From the IMG/VR virus record IMGVR_UViG_3300025655_000035, positions 1 through 64,000 of that record: DNA of 64,000 nucleotides. The stretch is one strand, 5' to 3'. Positions 2,782 to 30,685 of this stretch are shown piece after piece; within the stretch, counting starts at the first letter, position 1; every line of letters starts with the position of its first letter. Source of the stretch: a virus. The position numbers and the translations under genes were made by a program. Below the pieces are notes generated by a model, which was not told the origin of the DNA, did no database searches, and was given only the letters and a program-made list of their open reading frames with translations.

Positions 2782-3219
2782 TTACTTAATTTGCCTCATA
2801 ATTTCTCGTTTAATATCCTTTTCTTTTAAACTTTCCCTCTTATCGTAAAGTTTTTTACCTTTACCCAACACAATTTCCATCTTTAGTAAACCTCTTTCAG
2901 TACTAAAAATCTTATAGGGTACCAATGTTAAACCTTTTACCAATTCTTTTTGTAGTTTAACCAACTCTCGTTTCTTCATTAAGAGTTTACGTTCACGAAG
3001 TGGTTCGTGAGTATAGGATTGTTTGTATTCAGGAATGTTCATTCCTTTCACAAAAAGTTCACCATTATTAAAATAACAATACGCATCAACCAATGAAACT
3101 TTACCACCACGTATTGATTTAACTTCAGAACCCATTAATTGAATCCCAACAGTAAAAGTATCCTCGAAGAAATATTCGTGACTCACTTTACGATTTACTA
3201 TGTTGACTTTGGATTTCAT
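2782..3219 (-). CDS. smpB: SsrA-binding protein SmpB
   Basis: 145 aa, close to the usual 145-160 aa. SmpB binds tmRNA and delivers it to stalled ribosomes in trans-translation. Diagnostic family features are visible: the N-terminal NRKVSHEYFFEDTFTVGIQL, the GSEVKSIRGGKVSLVDAY segment, the NIPEYKQSYTHEPLRERKLL segment, and the C-terminal GKGKKLYDKRESLKEKD tail that mimics the anticodon arm. It is intact and probably functional. No tmRNA gene was found nearby. It has its own promoter with both -33 and -7 boxes (3224-3254) immediately after a terminator, which suggests independent host-like expression. SmpB in a phage is unusual; horizontal acquisition from a host is likely. Confidence 0.93.
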   Translation of the reverse strand: MKSKVNIVNRKVSHEYFFEDTFTVGIQLMGSEVKSIRGGKVSLVDAYCYFNNGELFVKGMNIPEYKQSYTHEPLRERKLLMKKRELVKLQKELVKGLTLVPYKIFSTERGLLKMEIVLGKGKKLYDKRESLKEKDIKREIMRQIK

Positions 3220-8314: not shown

Positions 8315-9529
8315 TTAATTTTTATTATTTTCAAACTTTATCTCGGTAGAATCAATATTAGATTTAGAATTCATCATTTCTTTAGTCAATTCATAATTAT
8401 CTTCATCCCTGTACTCCTTTAAAAGTTCTTCAGGATTTAAAAACCCATTATATTTTGAAGCAATCTCATCAAAATTTTTTGTACTGACGTTTGTATACAT
8501 ATTATGGTGAGCAACTGATAATTCGTCAGCCATTTCTAAACTAATAATAATTTCTTTAATTATTTCATATGGGTCAGCATTTGAAGCGGGTCTTCTGTCT
8601 TCTAAATAACCTTTCCATTCTTTTGCAGTATTCCTTGGGACTCTAATTGACGCACCCCTGTCGGCAATACCCCAACTAAATTTATCTATTGATTGAGTTT
8701 CGTGTTTACCAGTTAACCTCATATCATTATCAGACCCGTACACTTTAATATGAGCGTCTTTTCTTGTTTCAAAAGATTGGAATATTGCTTTAAAGTAGTC
8801 TTCCCCACCTTTTTCTCTCATTTTTTCAGTCGAGAAGTTGGTATGTAATCCTGAACCATTCCAATCCGCATATTTACCAAATGGTTTTGGGTGGTATTCA
8901 ATTTGGTACCCATATTGTTCGGATAATTTTTCCATAAAATATCTAGACACCCATAAATCATCACCAGCCTTTTTACTTCCCATAGAAAATACTTGATATT
9001 CCCATTGTCCTAAAGCAACCTCAGCGTTGATTCCAGTTATGTTAATACCATAATTCAAACACATTTCTAAGTGTTTTTCAACAAAATCTCTACCAACAAC
9101 ATTTGTACCCACACCACAATAGAACTTACCTTGAGGTTCAGAATTAAATGTGTGACCTAAAATAACACCTTGTTTCCCTTCTTTAATAAAATATTCTTGT
9201 TCAAATCCAAACCAAATGTCTGAATCATCATTAATAACAGCTCTACGATTTGATGGGTGTGGAGTTCCATCAGGATTCATTACTTCACAAAAAACATAAA
9301 TCCTATCTAAATTGTCATTTCTATAAATTCTGACAGGTTTTAAAATACAGTCAGAATCGTGACCTTCAGCTTGTTGTGTTGACGAACCATCAAAATTCCA
9401 CTCTGGTATATTCTCCAATAACGATTTAATATCTTTAAAAAAAATATTTTTATCTACAACTTTAATTTTACTCCTTAAATTTGGTTCTGGTGTATAACCA
9501 TCAAGCCAAATATATTCTAATTTTATCAT
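8315..9529 (-). CDS. glnII: Glutamine synthetase, type II (GSII)
   Basis: 404 aa; GSII enzymes are usually 330-380 aa, and the excess is a C-terminal tail. Makes glutamine from glutamate, ammonia and ATP. GSII motifs are intact: WNFDGSSTQQAEGHDSD, FGFEQEYF (metal/glutamate-binding Glu), YCGVGTNVVGRDFVE, GINAEVALGQWEYQV, DWNGSGLHTNFST, LTGKHET, FSWGIADRGASIRVPR and EDRRPASNADPY. GSII occurs in eukaryotes and some bacteria including Bacteroidetes. Its position inside a phage operon (4-nt overlap upstream, 1-nt gap downstream) makes it an auxiliary metabolic gene, probably boosting nitrogen assimilation or glutamine supply for nucleotide synthesis. The identification rests on many conserved blocks. 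Confidence 0.95.
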   Translation of the reverse strand: MIKLEYIWLDGYTPEPNLRSKIKVVDKNIFFKDIKSLLENIPEWNFDGSSTQQAEGHDSDCILKPVRIYRNDNLDRIYVFCEVMNPDGTPHPSNRRAVINDDSDIWFGFEQEYFIKEGKQGVILGHTFNSEPQGKFYCGVGTNVVGRDFVEKHLEMCLNYGINITGINAEVALGQWEYQVFSMGSKKAGDDLWVSRYFMEKLSEQYGYQIEYHPKPFGKYADWNGSGLHTNFSTEKMREKGGEDYFKAIFQSFETRKDAHIKVYGSDNDMRLTGKHETQSIDKFSWGIADRGASIRVPRNTAKEWKGYLEDRRPASNADPYEIIKEIIISLEMADELSVAHHNMYTNVSTKNFDEIASKYNGFLNPEELLKEYRDEDNYELTKEMMNSKSNIDSTEIKFENNKN

Positions 9530-19228: not shown

Positions 19229-20068
19229 TTAATAATTCATAATCAACAACTCTTCACCCATGTTTTGTGAGGTACCTTTTTTAGCTGCGGCCGCCTTAGC
19301 AAATTCTTTTTTAACCCAAGTATATTCGTCTTCAGGAAACCATTCATGTAATAGTTCAAAATCATAGTAAGATAAACTAAATTTACCATTAATTTTCCTC
19401 AATACGTTTGCCAGTCTTTCGTGGTCATCTCGGTCAAAGTCGTGGTTAGAGTAATAGTTTTCAGTCTTCCAATACGGTGGGTCCAAATAGAAGTATGTTG
19501 TTGGACTATCGAACTCCTGAATCACATTTGCAAAGTCACCAAGTCTAAAATGAGAAATCTTTTTGAAATGGTCAAGCCAGTCAGGTTTAGAAAGTTTGTC
19601 TCGGAATGTAAGATACTTTGATTTGTACTTACCTTTAAGGTCAATAAAGTTAGATGTCTCAGGTTTAGACCCACTGAATACCTGTGTTAGGATGTAAGCA
19701 TACTTAGCCGCAACATCATAATCGGGGTAATTGATTGTGAATCCCTCACCATATAACTCAGACTGAAACTCTTTGAATTGTTCTTTGTAAATAGGTGGAG
19801 TGACCTCAACATCTCGTTCTTGACACGGAATACGGTTTACCGCGTTTAACAAAACGTCAGGATTCTGTAAACACATAAATAAATTGTAATTCAACGGATT
19901 GAAGTCATTGTAAACCACCCTCTTTAGGTTAGGGTATTTTGACAAATCCATATTAAAGAAACACCAGAACATTCCTCCGAATGTCTCAACATACGTTTCC
20001 ATATCTGTAGGGTAATGCGGAACAATCCACTTACCAATTTTACTTTTACCTCCTATATAACTCAACAT
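19229..20068 (-). CDS. dam: DNA adenine methylase, D12 class (Dam-like)
   Basis: 279 aa. N6-adenine methyltransferase of the alpha class, in which the SAM-binding motif precedes the catalytic one. YIGGKSKIGKWIVPHYP (motif X/I region, residues 4-20), VETFGGMFWCFFNMD (motif I, G-G usually followed by S/G) and the catalytic DPPYWKTENYYS near residue 200 are present. Target site not readable; GATC-type sites are common for the class. An orphan enzyme, probably for anti-restriction or gene-timing use. Codon use is more G/C-rich than in its neighbours, which hints at acquisition. Confidence 0.9.
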   Translation of the reverse strand: MLSYIGGKSKIGKWIVPHYPTDMETYVETFGGMFWCFFNMDLSKYPNLKRVVYNDFNPLNYNLFMCLQNPDVLLNAVNRIPCQERDVEVTPPIYKEQFKEFQSELYGEGFTINYPDYDVAAKYAYILTQVFSGSKPETSNFIDLKGKYKSKYLTFRDKLSKPDWLDHFKKISHFRLGDFANVIQEFDSPTTYFYLDPPYWKTENYYSNHDFDRDDHERLANVLRKINGKFSLSYYDFELLHEWFPEDEYTWVKKEFAKAAAAKKGTSQNMGEELLIMNY

Positions 20069-20122: not shown

Positions 20123-22567
20123 TTATAATTTATATCCAAATCTAACCGAAAATTCTTGACCTGTTCTATAACTATTAGTTGTAATTAGTCCAATATCGGT
20201 CATTTGTTGTAGTTTGTATTCAGTGTTAAATAAATTGTTAATTCTAAAAGACATTACAAATTTATCTTTATTAATATTATAAACCATATTCACAAAATGT
20301 TGTGGTGTTTGGTAAATATCCCCCAATCCAAATACACCAACAGAGTTTAACTTAGTACCAACATAATTATAAACTATACCAATATTATTATTTTTATTAA
20401 TCATGTAAAATACATCAAAATTAGTCATAAATTTTGATGACCCTTGTAATGGTCTGTTAATATTAGTAACAACGACAGATGATGAAGTGTTTTCTGATGT
20501 AGTAATATTTGAATATAGGTAAGATGAATTAAAATCAAATTTAAAATTCTTAATACTTTTTTTAAAATCGAATTCACCTCCATATACCATAGATTGTAAA
20601 CTATTTTGATACGTCTCTAATCGACCACTTGCCGTAGCAACATTAACTTTTTCAATAGGATTCTTTATTAATTTATAGTACATAGTAAAACTAACTATCT
20701 CAGTTTTAGATGGATAAAATTCTAAATTTAAATCTCCATTATATACGGTAGAATTTATTAAATTAGGATTACCTTGTATTTTTGAACCCGCAAACACCTC
20801 GGTATATATGAACGGAGTCATTTCACGAAATCTAGGTCTTATTGTTGTAACCGCACCACTACCTCTTAATTGCAATTTATTTGTAATTTTATATTTTACA
20901 TTCAAATAAGGTAATATTTCAAAATTATCCAATATACTATATTTTGTGAATACAGGTGATAACTGGTCTTTATATTCAACTAATTGATATATTTTTTCAA
21001 ATCTAGACCCAAAACTTAAATCTATTTTATCATTATTAAAATCACTTTTATAATACCCACTATGATTTCTAATCACCCCATTAACTTCTGAAGCAGGATT
21101 ATTAACCCAAAAACTTTCACTATTTTCACCATTAATGAACATGAACGGGTTGTTAGGGTCAACACTAACGTTTTCATTATTAACACCTAATAAGTCGTAA
21201 TACTCCTGTTGATAATTAAAGTAGTTATTGGTAATCATATAGGAATAACCAAATTCGTGTAATGTTTTTCTTATATGGTATTTACCAGTCAAACCTAAAT
21301 TAATACGACTTTCTTTATTCTGACTCCAAAAGAAATGATTATCCAATTTATCAACGTTATTGAATTGATAATTACCATCATATAGGTAAACAAATTGGTT
21401 TCTACCGTTTTCACCACTATTGACCAATGATAGTCCACCAATACCACGGATTTCAAATTTATCTTTTTTTAATTCAAATTTAATTTGTTCTGTAAATAAA
21501 TTATGGTTTGTTGGTGTAATTCTTATAGTGAATAAATCAGTATTATAATCAAAATGAGAACCTAAAGTTGTTCTATAAGATTTTGAGTTTTGATTAATAA
21601 ATAATGTAGTGTTACTAACTTCTAAATCTTTATGATTAAAATCTAAAACCATTATCGCTGATGGTGTAAGTTGTTGAAGTTTTTCAGTAAAATTATAATC
21701 TAAAATACTATTCCCTTGTTTATTGGCCAATCTAATAACACCATTAGTGTTTTGATTATCTTGGTTTAAATTAAAATTAACTAAAAGTCCGAACTTTTTT
21801 AATTTATTATTACCAAAACTAATGTTTAAACTACTATTAGGTGTTGGTGTTAAAGTATTAAAAGAACCTTTATAATTAACCGTGAAATGTTTTCTAACAT
21901 TAGGTGTGGTAATGTTTATTTGTGCTCCAGCGACATTACTCCATTGTTCTGAGGAGTATGTTTTTTTAACTTTAATATTATCAATAACACTTAAAGGTAA
22001 TATTGATAAGTCAATGTTTTTTCTATCGGAATTATTTGACGGGATTGGGATACCGTTTAATGTTATTTGATTATATCTATCGTCTAAACCTCTAACATTT
22101 AATCTGCTATTTGAAAAGGTTATACTTGTTAGCTTTTTTAACCCGTCCTCAGCGTTTGAGATTCCTTTTTTTGACATCTCCATCCCCCCAATTGAAGATT
22201 CGATACCCACAAGTTTTTTTCTTTCGAGTAATAATACAGTTTCACTTGCATTATTTTTTTTACTTTTAACAGTAACTTCCCCAATTGTTTGGGCTTCAGT
22301 AACCATTACAACATTTAATACACCTTTACCAGTTTTGATTGTTTGTTTTTTAAAACCAATAAAACTAAATGTTATCGTACAACTATCAGTAATATTAAGA
22401 CCGTATTCACCATTATAATTAGTTAAAGTATTACCTTGTTCTGATTTAACATGAACGTAAGGTAGTGGTTGATTTGTTTCATCCACTACCTTACCTGTTA
22501 ATGTTTGGGCTAATGTGGTGTGTGTGAATAATACACACACCACCATATATAAAAGTTTTTTAATCAT
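20123..22567 (-). CDS. TonB-dependent outer-membrane receptor
   Basis: About 814 aa from MIKKLLYMVVCVLFTHTTLAQ, a clear Sec signal peptide. This start overlaps the upstream TGA as ATGA; the ATG at 22588 is less likely. Then a carboxypeptidase-regulatory-like domain (LTGKVVDETNQPLPYVHVKS ... FSFIGFKKQTI, residues 22-90), a plug domain with RGLDDRYNQITLNGIPIPSN, and a large beta-barrel rich in alternating aromatic strands to the C-terminus (RTGQEFSVRFGYKL). This is the SusC/FecA-like Bacteroidetes type, which imports large or scarce nutrients across the outer membrane using TonB energy. Such a gene is exceptional inside a phage. Substrate unknown; coupled to the beta-helix lipoprotein gene. Confidence 0.93.
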   Translation of the reverse strand: MIKKLLYMVVCVLFTHTTLAQTLTGKVVDETNQPLPYVHVKSEQGNTLTNYNGEYGLNITDSCTITFSFIGFKKQTIKTGKGVLNVVMVTEAQTIGEVTVKSKKNNASETVLLLERKKLVGIESSIGGMEMSKKGISNAEDGLKKLTSITFSNSRLNVRGLDDRYNQITLNGIPIPSNNSDRKNIDLSILPLSVIDNIKVKKTYSSEQWSNVAGAQINITTPNVRKHFTVNYKGSFNTLTPTPNSSLNISFGNNKLKKFGLLVNFNLNQDNQNTNGVIRLANKQGNSILDYNFTEKLQQLTPSAIMVLDFNHKDLEVSNTTLFINQNSKSYRTTLGSHFDYNTDLFTIRITPTNHNLFTEQIKFELKKDKFEIRGIGGLSLVNSGENGRNQFVYLYDGNYQFNNVDKLDNHFFWSQNKESRINLGLTGKYHIRKTLHEFGYSYMITNNYFNYQQEYYDLLGVNNENVSVDPNNPFMFINGENSESFWVNNPASEVNGVIRNHSGYYKSDFNNDKIDLSFGSRFEKIYQLVEYKDQLSPVFTKYSILDNFEILPYLNVKYKITNKLQLRGSGAVTTIRPRFREMTPFIYTEVFAGSKIQGNPNLINSTVYNGDLNLEFYPSKTEIVSFTMYYKLIKNPIEKVNVATASGRLETYQNSLQSMVYGGEFDFKKSIKNFKFDFNSSYLYSNITTSENTSSSVVVTNINRPLQGSSKFMTNFDVFYMINKNNNIGIVYNYVGTKLNSVGVFGLGDIYQTPQHFVNMVYNINKDKFVMSFRINNLFNTEYKLQQMTDIGLITTNSYRTGQEFSVRFGYKL

Positions 22568-23715
22568 CGTGTCCAGCCATTCATCCATTCACTTCCTGAA
22601 CCAATTGTTGTATCAGGTATAAACCAACCATCATTCAATGTCATTATCAACCCATCAAATGAAGAACAATCTTTAAAATTTGTACCGTTACCAGTAATTG
22701 TAGAGTTAGCTACAAACAACTCACCATTAACTACGTGGTTCAATGATGTTTCTTCCGATACACGAACTCCGTACTTTGGGAAACCTGTAACATATGCGTA
22801 ATAGATTTGACCTTTAGTACCTTCTCTTAATCTCATACCAGTATTCAACCCATCCCCATCATCAACACCATTTAATGTGATGTTAGCCAATGTTGGATTT
22901 GAATATGGCGCTAATGTATTATCATCAGAGTTGTTATCAGCTTCGATACCTCTATCTCCACCGTCAACACCTTGTTGAACGTACCAGTATTGTCCTTTTC
23001 CTCTCCAACCATGAGTCCAATCGAATGCGTCATCTTGGTTATGTGTTGAAACCGCATATCTTACATTCACAGTTCCACCAAAAAATTCAATACCATCATC
23101 AGAGCCTTTATACGCTTGGATATATTCAACGACGGTACCCGAACCAACACCATTAAATGAGAATCCATTTAATTCATTATCTGTACCTAATATTTTACCT
23201 GCATATTCAACTCTAACATATCTTAAAACACCTGAATTATCTTCGTCATTATTACCACCGTAAATACCTGTACCACCTTCACCCTCTGCGGTTAACCCAG
23301 TATTTAATTTAGCCTTACCATTTATGATAATACCTCCCCAATCACCGTATGTTGGGTTATCTTTTAAGGGCGTGAAAACAATAGGATTAGTGTTAGAACC
23401 TTCAGCCATAATTTTACCACCTTGCTTGATAGATAAAAACGTGGTTACATTTATATCAGCATAAATTGTTTGACCACCGTTTATGGTTAATTTTGTGTTA
23501 TCATCAATAAAAACACCACCAGATAACAACCAATTTTTATCTGAACTAAATGTTAAATTTTCATTGATGGTACCCTCAACCTTATTATAGGTTACACCAT
23601 TAATAACAGTTTCACTGATAATATAGGTTTTATTGTTAGGGGTAATTATCTCTTTATCACAAGAGCTAAACATCATTAATACTGACGATGCAAAAAGAAC
23701 TAAAATTTTTTTCAT
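22564..23715 (-). CDS. Exported beta-helix lipoprotein, partner of the TonB receptor
   Basis: 383 aa. Signal peptide MKKILVLFASSVLMMFSSC with a lipobox-like Cys at 19. After a short linker the body has Gly/Asn-rich repeats typical of right-handed parallel beta-helices (GDWGGIIINGKAKLN, GVLRYVRVEYAGKILGTDNE, GTVVEYIQAYKGSDDGIEFF). Proteins with this pattern are widespread in Bacteroidetes and are often encoded beside TonB receptors. The 4-nt ATGA overlap with the receptor gene shows they are translated together. Role as a surface-exposed substrate-binding partner is inferred. Confidence 0.8.
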   Translation of the reverse strand: MKKILVLFASSVLMMFSSCDKEIITPNNKTYIISETVINGVTYNKVEGTINENLTFSSDKNWLLSGGVFIDDNTKLTINGGQTIYADINVTTFLSIKQGGKIMAEGSNTNPIVFTPLKDNPTYGDWGGIIINGKAKLNTGLTAEGEGGTGIYGGNNDEDNSGVLRYVRVEYAGKILGTDNELNGFSFNGVGSGTVVEYIQAYKGSDDGIEFFGGTVNVRYAVSTHNQDDAFDWTHGWRGKGQYWYVQQGVDGGDRGIEADNNSDDNTLAPYSNPTLANITLNGVDDGDGLNTGMRLREGTKGQIYYAYVTGFPKYGVRVSEETSLNHVVNGELFVANSTITGNGTNFKDCSSFDGLIMTLNDGWFIPDTTIGSGSEWMNGWTR

Positions 23716-23859
23716 AATATATTTTTTAACAATATATAGATATGAAATTCAATTAAACATCAATAAAAAAATATGATAACCATAAAATAACCTTATGTTA
23801 ACATGACACAATATTTTACATTATATTAGTTTTAGTATATATTTAAATAAAAAGTTATT

Positions 23860-24006: not shown

Positions 24007-24924
24007 TTAAGGTCTATCAAATCTAACAAACAATTTAACAAACAAATCCCCAATATTGGAGTACCCTTTACCCTTGACTCGTAAGGGTTTAGACGTGTCA
24101 AAAGTTTTTGGTAGTTTTACTGATATACTACCTTGTGGGTGTGGTATTTCGACATCATCTTTTTCCAAATCTTCTTTACTAAAGTAAGCGTTATATACTA
24201 AATCATCACCAATCTTTTCAAAGTTATTTTGTTGAGTTGTCCTAACTCTAATTACTAAATTACCGTACATGCCGTCATGGTAATCACCTTTACCTTGTAA
24301 TTTCAAGAATTGACCGTCATCAATTCCATGAGGTAATTTAATTTTAATCGTTTCTGTCATTGTTTTTGTTGTTTTACCATGACAAGTACCACAAGTCTTT
24401 GTATAAACATAACCAGCACCTCTACAATTATTACAAGCCTGTCTAACAACTTGATTAAACATACTACCACCTATTTTATGAATTGTAAATCCCTGTCCAT
24501 TACAAACTTGACAAGTCACTCTATCACCACCACCACCATTACACCCATTACACTGATGTTCTCTATCATACGTGATAATTCTATCACCACCCAAAAATGA
24601 ATCAACCGCACCAACAATAATTTCAATTATTTTATCAGGTACTGCTCGTTTTCTTTGTGAATATCCTCCATTAAATAAATCTTCGAATGGATTAAATCCT
24701 GAGGATGCGAATGGGTTATTTCTTCTGGCGTCGTATTGTCTTTTTTTATCATCATTACTTAAAGTGTCATAAGCCTCAGATATTTGTTTAAATTTATCTT
24801 CAGAACCTCCTTTATCAGGATGATGTTCAACCGCCAATTTTCTATAAGCTTTTTTAATTTCATCTTGTGTCGCCGATTCGCTGACCCCAAGTATATTATA
24901 AAAATTATTCTGATTACTCATCAA
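24007..24924 (-). CDS. dnaJ: DnaJ (Hsp40) co-chaperone
   Basis: 305 aa, shorter than cellular DnaJ (about 375). J domain with H35-P36-D37 in KLAVEHHPDKGG, a short G/F linker (NPFASSGFNPFEDLFNGGYS), four zinc-binding CxxCxGxG-type repeats (CNGCNGGG, CQVCNGQG, CNNCRGAG, CGTCHGKT) and a C-terminal substrate-binding domain (IKLPHGIDDGQFLKLQGKGD). It stimulates DnaK ATPase. No DnaK gene is here, so it should recruit the host chaperone, for example for replication or head assembly as with other phages. Initiation may be at either of two adjacent ATGs. Confidence 0.95.
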   Translation of the reverse strand: MMSNQNNFYNILGVSESATQDEIKKAYRKLAVEHHPDKGGSEDKFKQISEAYDTLSNDDKKRQYDARRNNPFASSGFNPFEDLFNGGYSQRKRAVPDKIIEIIVGAVDSFLGGDRIITYDREHQCNGCNGGGGDRVTCQVCNGQGFTIHKIGGSMFNQVVRQACNNCRGAGYVYTKTCGTCHGKTTKTMTETIKIKLPHGIDDGQFLKLQGKGDYHDGMYGNLVIRVRTTQQNNFEKIGDDLVYNAYFSKEDLEKDDVEIPHPQGSISVKLPKTFDTSKPLRVKGKGYSNIGDLFVKLFVRFDRP

Positions 24925-30028: not shown

Positions 30029-30266
30029 TTTTCAATCTTGGTTCCCAATAACTTCTTTGAGTCCACATAAAATTATAAAACTCTCGGAAAACTTTTATGG
30101 TTATGTCTTTAATATCACCATTTAATTTACCTCTCTTTATTTCTTGAGCGATTAATTCCACCATTTTTTGTTCGTGTTGTCTCATAGTTTGTGAGCCAAG
30201 GAAATCTTTGATTTCTTTTCTAACAATAGTTTCAATCTGTCTTTTATCAGTATCTGTTAAGGCCAT
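30021..30266 (-). CDS. Small conserved-type phage protein
   Basis: 81 aa. ALTDTDKRQIETIVRKEIKD then FLGSQTMRQHEQKMVELIAQ and a C-terminal EFYNFMWTQRSYWEPRLKNA. Recurs in uncultured phages, function unknown. Overlaps genes on both sides by 8-10 nt, beside the lysis-like genes. Confidence 0.62.
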   Translation of the reverse strand: MALTDTDKRQIETIVRKEIKDFLGSQTMRQHEQKMVELIAQEIKRGKLNGDIKDITIKVFREFYNFMWTQRSYWEPRLKNA

Positions 30267-30685
30267 GTTATGATTAATATTGTTGTTGATATTATTCCAA
30301 TAAAAGAACCTATTTTATATAAAAAATTTTCAGTTTTCTTTTTCTTCAGTTCTTTGGATAGGCTTTCTGTTAATTCTTTAGAAATTTCTAATTGTTCATT
30401 TTTCATTAAAATGATACTTTGGCTGTTACTATCTTTCATAGTTAGTAATTGAATGATACTATCTTTTTCAGACTCTCTTTCTTTTAATAGTTCTACTTTA
30501 TCTTGAGTTAACTTTAATTCTTCCTCGCACCCATCCAACCTAATTAAATCTTTAACGACTTGTTTGGCAACATCTTGACTTAAAACCACTTTTGTGGTAT
30601 CAGTTTTAATTCTTACCGTATCTGTTTGCGAAAAACAATTCAAGCTCGTTAAGGCCAAAATTGTTAACATTATTAATTTTTTCAT
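30257..30685 (-). CDS. Putative spanin or lysis-associated protein (signal peptide, coiled coil, C-terminal TM)
   Basis: 142 aa. Signal peptide MKKLIMLTILALTSLNCFSQ with cleavage probably after FSQ, as is common in flavobacteria. A long coiled coil follows (LKLTQDKVELLKERESEKDS ... LESLSKELKKK-like) and a C-terminal hydrophobic helix (KIGSFIGIISTTILIITWP). Its first 80 nt overlap the upstream coiled-coil membrane gene in a different frame, the Rz/Rz1-like arrangement of spanin genes. It lies close to the endolysin. Function inferred. Confidence 0.55.
   Translation of the reverse strand: MKKLIMLTILALTSLNCFSQTDTVRIKTDTTKVVLSQDVAKQVVKDLIRLDGCEEELKLTQDKVELLKERESEKDSIIQLLTMKDSNSQSIILMKNEQLEISKELTESLSKELKKKKTENFLYKIGSFIGIISTTILIITWP

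Follow-up and report, generated by a model that had tools for sequence, protein, structure and literature searches.

Why would a phage carry a complete outer-membrane transporter? The question is raised by IMG/VR virus record IMGVR_UViG_3300025655_000035, whose positions 1 to 64,000 we analysed; this window is nearly the whole of the 64,071-base record. A preliminary description had proposed that positions 20123–23715 hold a phage-borne cassette in which a TonB-dependent receptor (TBDR) is coupled to a beta-helix lipoprotein (LP), and that the pair imports a scarce nutrient, excludes superinfecting phages or alters the surface binding of rivals. We consider it probable that the pair is a phage auxiliary cassette, copied from a Bacteroidota phosphate-starvation outer-membrane system, which imports phosphorus under the control of PhoB acting on a host-type Pho box promoter.

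Two overlapping genes for a lipoprotein and a TonB-dependent receptor

The segment contains two intact open reading frames (ORFs) on the minus strand, with the LP gene (22564–23715) first in transcription order and the TBDR gene (20123–22567) second. The mechanically called TBDR frame begins at 22588 and the TBDR signal peptide, MIKKLLYMVVCVLFTHTTLAQ, at 22567. We took the start at 22567, which gives an ATGA overlap between the LP stop codon and the start of the TBDR (22564–22567, minus strand; read directly as GGACACGATGATTAAA). The overlap likely couples translation of the two genes.

The LP gene encodes a predicted surface-type, FII/ElpS-like lipoprotein of 383 aa. It has a signal peptide and a lipobox that ends at Cys19, a residue invariant in all 48 aligned homologues, and it is 38–74% identical to 47 relatives in the same lipobox-bearing family. 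On the basis of the ORF, the lipobox, the AlphaFold2 model and synteny, it is a homologue of the lipoprotein whose gene adjoins phoBR in Bacteroidota. The model is a right-handed beta-helix (pLDDT 94). A sequence search of solved structures with LP matched none, and a fold search returned weak beta-helix matches alone, none below E 1e-3; we therefore give LP no catalytic function.

The TBDR consists of a signal peptide, a CarboxypepD_reg-like domain, a TonB-box-like segment (IGEVTV), a plug and a barrel. Pfam matched CarbopepD_reg_2 (1.3e-9) and Plug (2.2e-9); the NCBIfam match to TIGR01782 was sub-threshold, and the Pfam barrel model PF00593 gave no match, the barrel being too divergent. An AlphaFold2 model built from 40 sequences is nevertheless a plug-plus-barrel TonB transporter (pLDDT 88). 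Its top PDB matches in Foldseek were TonB transporters, the best being PhuR (E 3e-25), and the Bacteroides receptor-lipoprotein complexes XusA-XusB and BtuB-BtuG were also among the matches. Thus, the ATGA overlap, signal peptides, lipobox, CarboxypepD_reg-like domain and plug of the preliminary description all hold up against the ORFs, Pfam and the sequence, and its barrel against the predicted structure.

The pair recurs in several phage lineages

A separate contig from another assembly, IMGVR_UViG_3300025647_000036, has identical gene order on both sides of the cassette, with 99–100% protein identity. A misassembly breakpoint at the cassette is therefore very unlikely. Profile searches found the pair in further phage contigs, representing at least five lineages besides that of the window. 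These are IMGVR_UViG_3300031857_000010 (217 kb), of which there are two near-copies; 3300009149_003803 with 3300024262_000036; 3300021964_009080 (13 kb), in which the pair adjoins an amidase-type endolysin gene; 3300020460_000014 (L095, 77 kb), with terminase large subunit, tail sheath and tail tube genes located upstream of the pair at a distance of a few kilobases; the megaphage LR745206 (L008; 634,780 bases); and L013, a contig of a Prochlorococcus single-cell assembly, in which a tmRNA gene adjoins the pair. The proposal of a phage-borne cassette is thus supported. The accompanying statement that a complete TonB receptor is very unusual for a phage needs qualification: it is unusual, not unique, as PMC9723777 already reports a TBDR in the megaphages Mar_Mega_1 and LR745206.

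We built trees of both proteins with seven phage copies: the window, L092, L093, L003, L095, L013 and LR745206. The LP tree places six of the phage proteins in a single clade (SH-aLRT 94) and LR745206 just outside it; a clade that unites all seven was not rejected (approximately unbiased test, p 0.37). The TBDR tree, set against host receptors, recovers these six as a clade (support 100), with all seven falling to the same side of a weakly supported branch (61). The two trees share their internal groups (window/L092/L093/L003 and L095/L013), which argues that the two genes travelled together. Among the near phages the TBDRs are 49–54% identical and the LPs about 73%.

All seven phages have LP followed by TBDR. 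In six, the stop of LP and the start of the TBDR overlap or are 1 base apart, and in LR745206 there is a short gap. The proposed coupling of the receptor and lipoprotein genes is supported. The genes flanking the cassette differ in every phage lineage; because of this, and because the phage copies group in both trees, the cassette appears to travel between phages. A search with DnaJ for a related phage with an empty site returned only the near-identical contig, and hence no such site.

The nearest bacterial relatives often lie beside phoBR

By family and synteny, the nearest bacterial relatives of the pair are the phosphate-starvation pair of Bacteroidota, known as PUSIV in Flavobacterium johnsoniae, and its Caulobacter counterpart, ElpS/CC0171. 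A PhoB-like regulator gene lies divergent from the TBDR, within 700 bases, in 33 of the 69 host loci with room to see it, and 24 of these also have a PhoR-like kinase. Searched with the LP profile, 57 of 61 Flavobacterium genomes contain the family, at up to five matches per genome. In all 14 Flavobacterium loci that we fetched, the order is phoR-phoB / TBDR-LP, with the pair divergent from phoB-phoR. The same arrangement is reported for F. johnsoniae, where Fjoh_0543 to Fjoh_0546 encode PhoR, PhoB, a TonB-dependent transporter (TBDT) and lipoprotein FII, the latter two being strongly induced by phosphate depletion (PMC8115612). FI, a relative of FII, is the most abundant exoprotein of phosphate-depleted F. 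johnsoniae, and both FI and FII are reported to be related to Caulobacter ElpS (PMC8115612). Phosphate-starved Caulobacter produces ElpS as a surface lipoprotein, which the authors of that work tie to the neighbouring TonB receptor CC0171 (PMC2996285).

The phage pair thus shares its TBDR and beta-helix lipoprotein with PUSIV by family and synteny, and its Pho-linked promoter (below) is also a point of likeness; in the bacterium, induction by phosphate depletion is known. It is a homologue of the PUSIV pair and not a member of a PUSIV locus: it has no divergent phoB-phoR, and its genes overlap or nearly so in the order LP then TBDR. In bacteria the two are adjacent, in the order TBDR then LP, in 71 of 78 loci, with a gap mostly of tens to hundreds of bases. 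The phage receptors are also shorter (732–841 aa versus about 900–1000 for the PUSIV type). In L003 the TBDR lacks the N-terminal extension and keeps a TonB-box-like segment directly after the signal peptide. As to origin, we lean slightly towards a single capture from a Bacteroidota phoBR-linked locus with Pho-box control, followed by reordering, trimming and passage, as a mobile phage-specific outer-membrane phosphorus cassette, among large phages that are distant relatives of one another, one of them a megaphage of more than 600 kb.

A Pho-box-like site precedes the phage pair

PhoB-type regulators bind 11-base direct repeats. We examined promoters with two tests built on bacterial promoters alone, the phages being kept out of the training. 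Upstream of the bacterial TBDRs, identical four-base words spaced exactly 11 bases apart occurred 113 times, versus 33.6 in shuffled sequence; the other spacings from 7 to 15 showed no enrichment, apart from a slight excess at 10. In the second test, we used 20 promoters from the nearest bacterial clade to fit a tied half-site model (consensus ATGTTAAC, half-site spacing 11 bases), and its likelihood was highest at a period of 11 (107, versus 31–49 at other periods). A similar motif, TTTAACA, is reported for PhoP in Riemerella (PMC9603813).

The top site of this host-trained model in the whole 64-kb window lies at 23786–23804 (score 17.6), just upstream of LP. The predicted Pho box there (23770–23802, minus strand) consists of three 11-bp direct repeats, GTTAACATAAG / GTTATTTTATG / GTTATCATATT, 55–87 nt upstream of the LP start codon. 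In L092, L093, L095, L003 and L013 the top site of the whole stretch is likewise just upstream of LP. In a ranking of intergenic upstream regions 60 bases or longer, the LP promoter came first in six of the seven phages (of 20, 11, 12, 11, 7 and 6 regions); in LR745206 it scored 12.4, below one of 26 regions. Multiplied, the ranks give about 6e-8, a figure that overstates the evidence since the phages are related. A separate observation is that the second-best match in the window (30254–30272, score 16.3) falls at the junction of two overlapping genes and not in a spacer.

The nearest-clade model was used in place of a Pho-box model of all hosts, a choice that is open to criticism. The all-host model was uneven: p was 0.20 for the window, 0.81 for LR745206 and at most 0.008 for the other five phages. 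Half-site words that differ among clades probably explain this unevenness.

A proposed role in phosphorus import

How might the phage use the pair? In a phosphate-starved host, phosphorylated host PhoB would activate the phage promoter, and the two translationally coupled proteins would be made and exported. At the cell surface, LP would bind a phosphorus compound, either phosphate or an organophosphate, which the TBDR would then import with TonB energy, so that the imported phosphorus could feed phage DNA synthesis. The phage pair would be made alongside the host's own pair and could keep up phosphorus intake as host expression fails. Among the three benefits first proposed, nutrient import is thus favoured, and phosphorus is the likeliest nutrient because of the phoBR synteny of the relatives and the Pho-box-like promoter; we found no specific support for superinfection exclusion or altered surface binding.

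Several observations weigh against phosphorus import under PhoB. The phages have the two genes in the opposite order to bacteria and no phoBR next to them. Searches of the window record for PstS, PHO4 and PhoH found none of these genes; PhoH is present in the 217-kb relative and in LR745206. Although PhoB is the top-scoring NCBIfam family for the four regulators tested from the bacterial loci, the scores lie below the curated cut-offs. The phage pair is tied to Fjoh_0546 and CC0170 (ElpS) by family and by the synteny of the 14 Flavobacterium neighbourhoods, and CC0171 and ElpS are themselves linked to starvation and phosphatase activity alone (PMC2996285), so that import of phosphate or an organophosphate by the pair would be a proposal for the bacteria too. 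The relatedness of the phages means that their promoter results are not fully independent. On the supporting side, purifying selection that maintains the function of both proteins is pointed to by pairwise dN/dS among the four nearest phages (about 0.11–0.16 for LP and 0.24–0.28 for the TBDR, in pairs with finite dS below 2), values that are rough, with dS close to saturation.

Alternative explanations

TBDRs are classical receptors of phages and colicins. The phage TBDR and lipoprotein could mask or replace the pair that the host itself displays and thereby deny binding to rival phages or bacteriocins that use it, and the stronger divergence of the phage TBDR than of LP could reflect surface escape. 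An exclusion gene, however, should be expressed early in every infection, and a host-type Pho box would be unexpected in front of it. The plug, the TonB-box-like segment and the lipoprotein partner are moreover all retained, the TonB-box-like segment even in L003 with its missing N-terminal extension. We judge exclusion unlikely. Some TBDRs act as sensors through their N-terminal extensions, and the phage receptor could likewise sense external phosphorus and change host gene expression instead of importing anything. This seems highly improbable: L003 lacks the extension entirely, and the annotated flanking genes are not of the FecR-like anti-sigma type. They encode, as the preliminary description had it and Pfam confirmed, DnaJ (24007–24924, minus strand; PHROG 14336) and a Dam-type D12 methyltransferase (19229–20068, minus strand; PHROG 56), which lie outside the cassette and belong to its phage context.

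Carbohydrate import by a SusC-like receptor that boosts sugar uptake during infection is the published proposal for the TBDR of Mar_Mega_1 and LR745206 (PMC9723777). CarboxypepD_reg-like domains do occur in SusC proteins, and the LP beta-helix resembles polysaccharide-active enzymes. LP, however, matches no Pfam SusD family, and the SusC/RagA model TIGR04056 covers the N-terminal extension only (53 bits, versus a cut-off of 368). On these two results we rejected a SusC/SusD carbohydrate system, and with the sister bacterial loci linked to phoBR we regard sugar import by the pair as very unlikely. A last concern with a metagenomic record is host contamination or a chimeric assembly that joined a bacterial pair to viral sequence. 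A similar pair does occur in short contigs from faeces that bear the label 'Bacteriophage sp.'. One of them, MT837092 (L009), groups with Parabacteroides/Bacteroides in both trees; it is probably bacterial, and we set it aside as a phage example. A second, MT838075, was also set aside and left out of the trees. For the window, contamination is contradicted by the independent contig with identical flanks, by the presence of the pair among phage genes in at least six phage lineages (in one of them next to terminase and tail genes), and by a gene order and overlap unlike those of bacterial loci. We rejected it as having a negligible chance of being true. Phosphorus import thus remains the reading that we prefer.

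Relation to known systems

Cyanophages are the best-known carriers of phage phosphorus genes, whose products work in the periplasm or cytoplasm. The pair described here resembles cyanophage pstS and other Pho-box genes in that a phage phosphorus gene appears to stand under the host phosphate two-component system PhoBR (PMC10976474 and references in it). PstS, however, is periplasmic, whereas the present pair, from Bacteroidota phages, is predicted to combine active transport across the outer membrane with a surface lipoprotein. The Caulobacter crescentus pair of ElpS (CC0170) and CC0171 is alike as a phosphate-starvation surface lipoprotein adjoining a TonB receptor (PMC2996285), a likeness drawn from its description; unlike the phage LP, ElpS is proteobacterial and is released by a type II secretion-dependent route. 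Bacteroides BtuB-BtuG and XusA-XusB also combine a TBDR with a surface lipoprotein partner, but their lipoproteins have other folds and their ligands are vitamin B12 and siderophores. The sole TBDR of this kind that we found in LR745206 belongs to the cassette and would correspond to the megaphage 'SusC' of PMC9723777; the available part of that paper gives no description of a lipoprotein partner or of the promoter.

Already known, then, were a TBDR in megaphages (PMC9723777) and the control of phage phosphorus genes by PhoBR. In the open-access literature that we searched there is no earlier account of the pair in phages; as far as that literature shows, the lipoprotein partner, the identity as a phoBR-linked pair, the Pho-box promoter and the spread among phage lineages are new. 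If our reading is true, the cassette would be without precedent, within the literature searched, as a phage system that acts at the outer membrane to acquire phosphorus. Bacteroidota are major degraders of organic matter. A transporter and lipoprotein with an apparent host starvation switch would extend phage phosphorus genes to the jumbo phages and megaphages of this group, and the published megaphage 'SusC' would be reinterpreted as a phosphorus gene. The role of ElpS/FII-type lipoproteins, including the top exoprotein of phosphate-starved F. johnsoniae, would also become a testable question.

Other genes of the window and related phages

The window contig further encodes a phage-type sigma factor, SbcC/SbcD, a primase, an exonuclease and a RuvC-like resolvase. 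A glutamine synthetase-like gene with N- and C-terminal Gln-synt domains (8315–9529) is a possible nitrogen-metabolism auxiliary gene of the same phage. The window phage also has an SmpB gene (2782–3219), and in L013 a tmRNA (L013:1–329) directly precedes the cassette, so that both carry parts of trans-translation. L013 (QCKH01000014) is filed under Prochlorococcus AG-409-L21 and looks like a Bacteroidota phage, which suggests that this reference genome is contaminated by it.

The 217-kb relative carries an array of at least 13 tRNA genes (L092:2495–4040). Directly downstream of the L095 cassette lies a gene for a MarC-family membrane protein (L095:13639–14217), and patatin, Nudix and NAMPT-like genes are found in LR745206 about 3–7 kb before the cassette (L008:11915–15643). 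Two further IMG/VR contigs (L004:10001–13130 and L005:9824–14601) encode an LP relative without a lipobox (31% identity) and, close to it, proteins that carry the type IX secretion signals CHU_C and Por_Secre_tail. It is as if these viruses sent cargo out through the type IX secretion system of the host.

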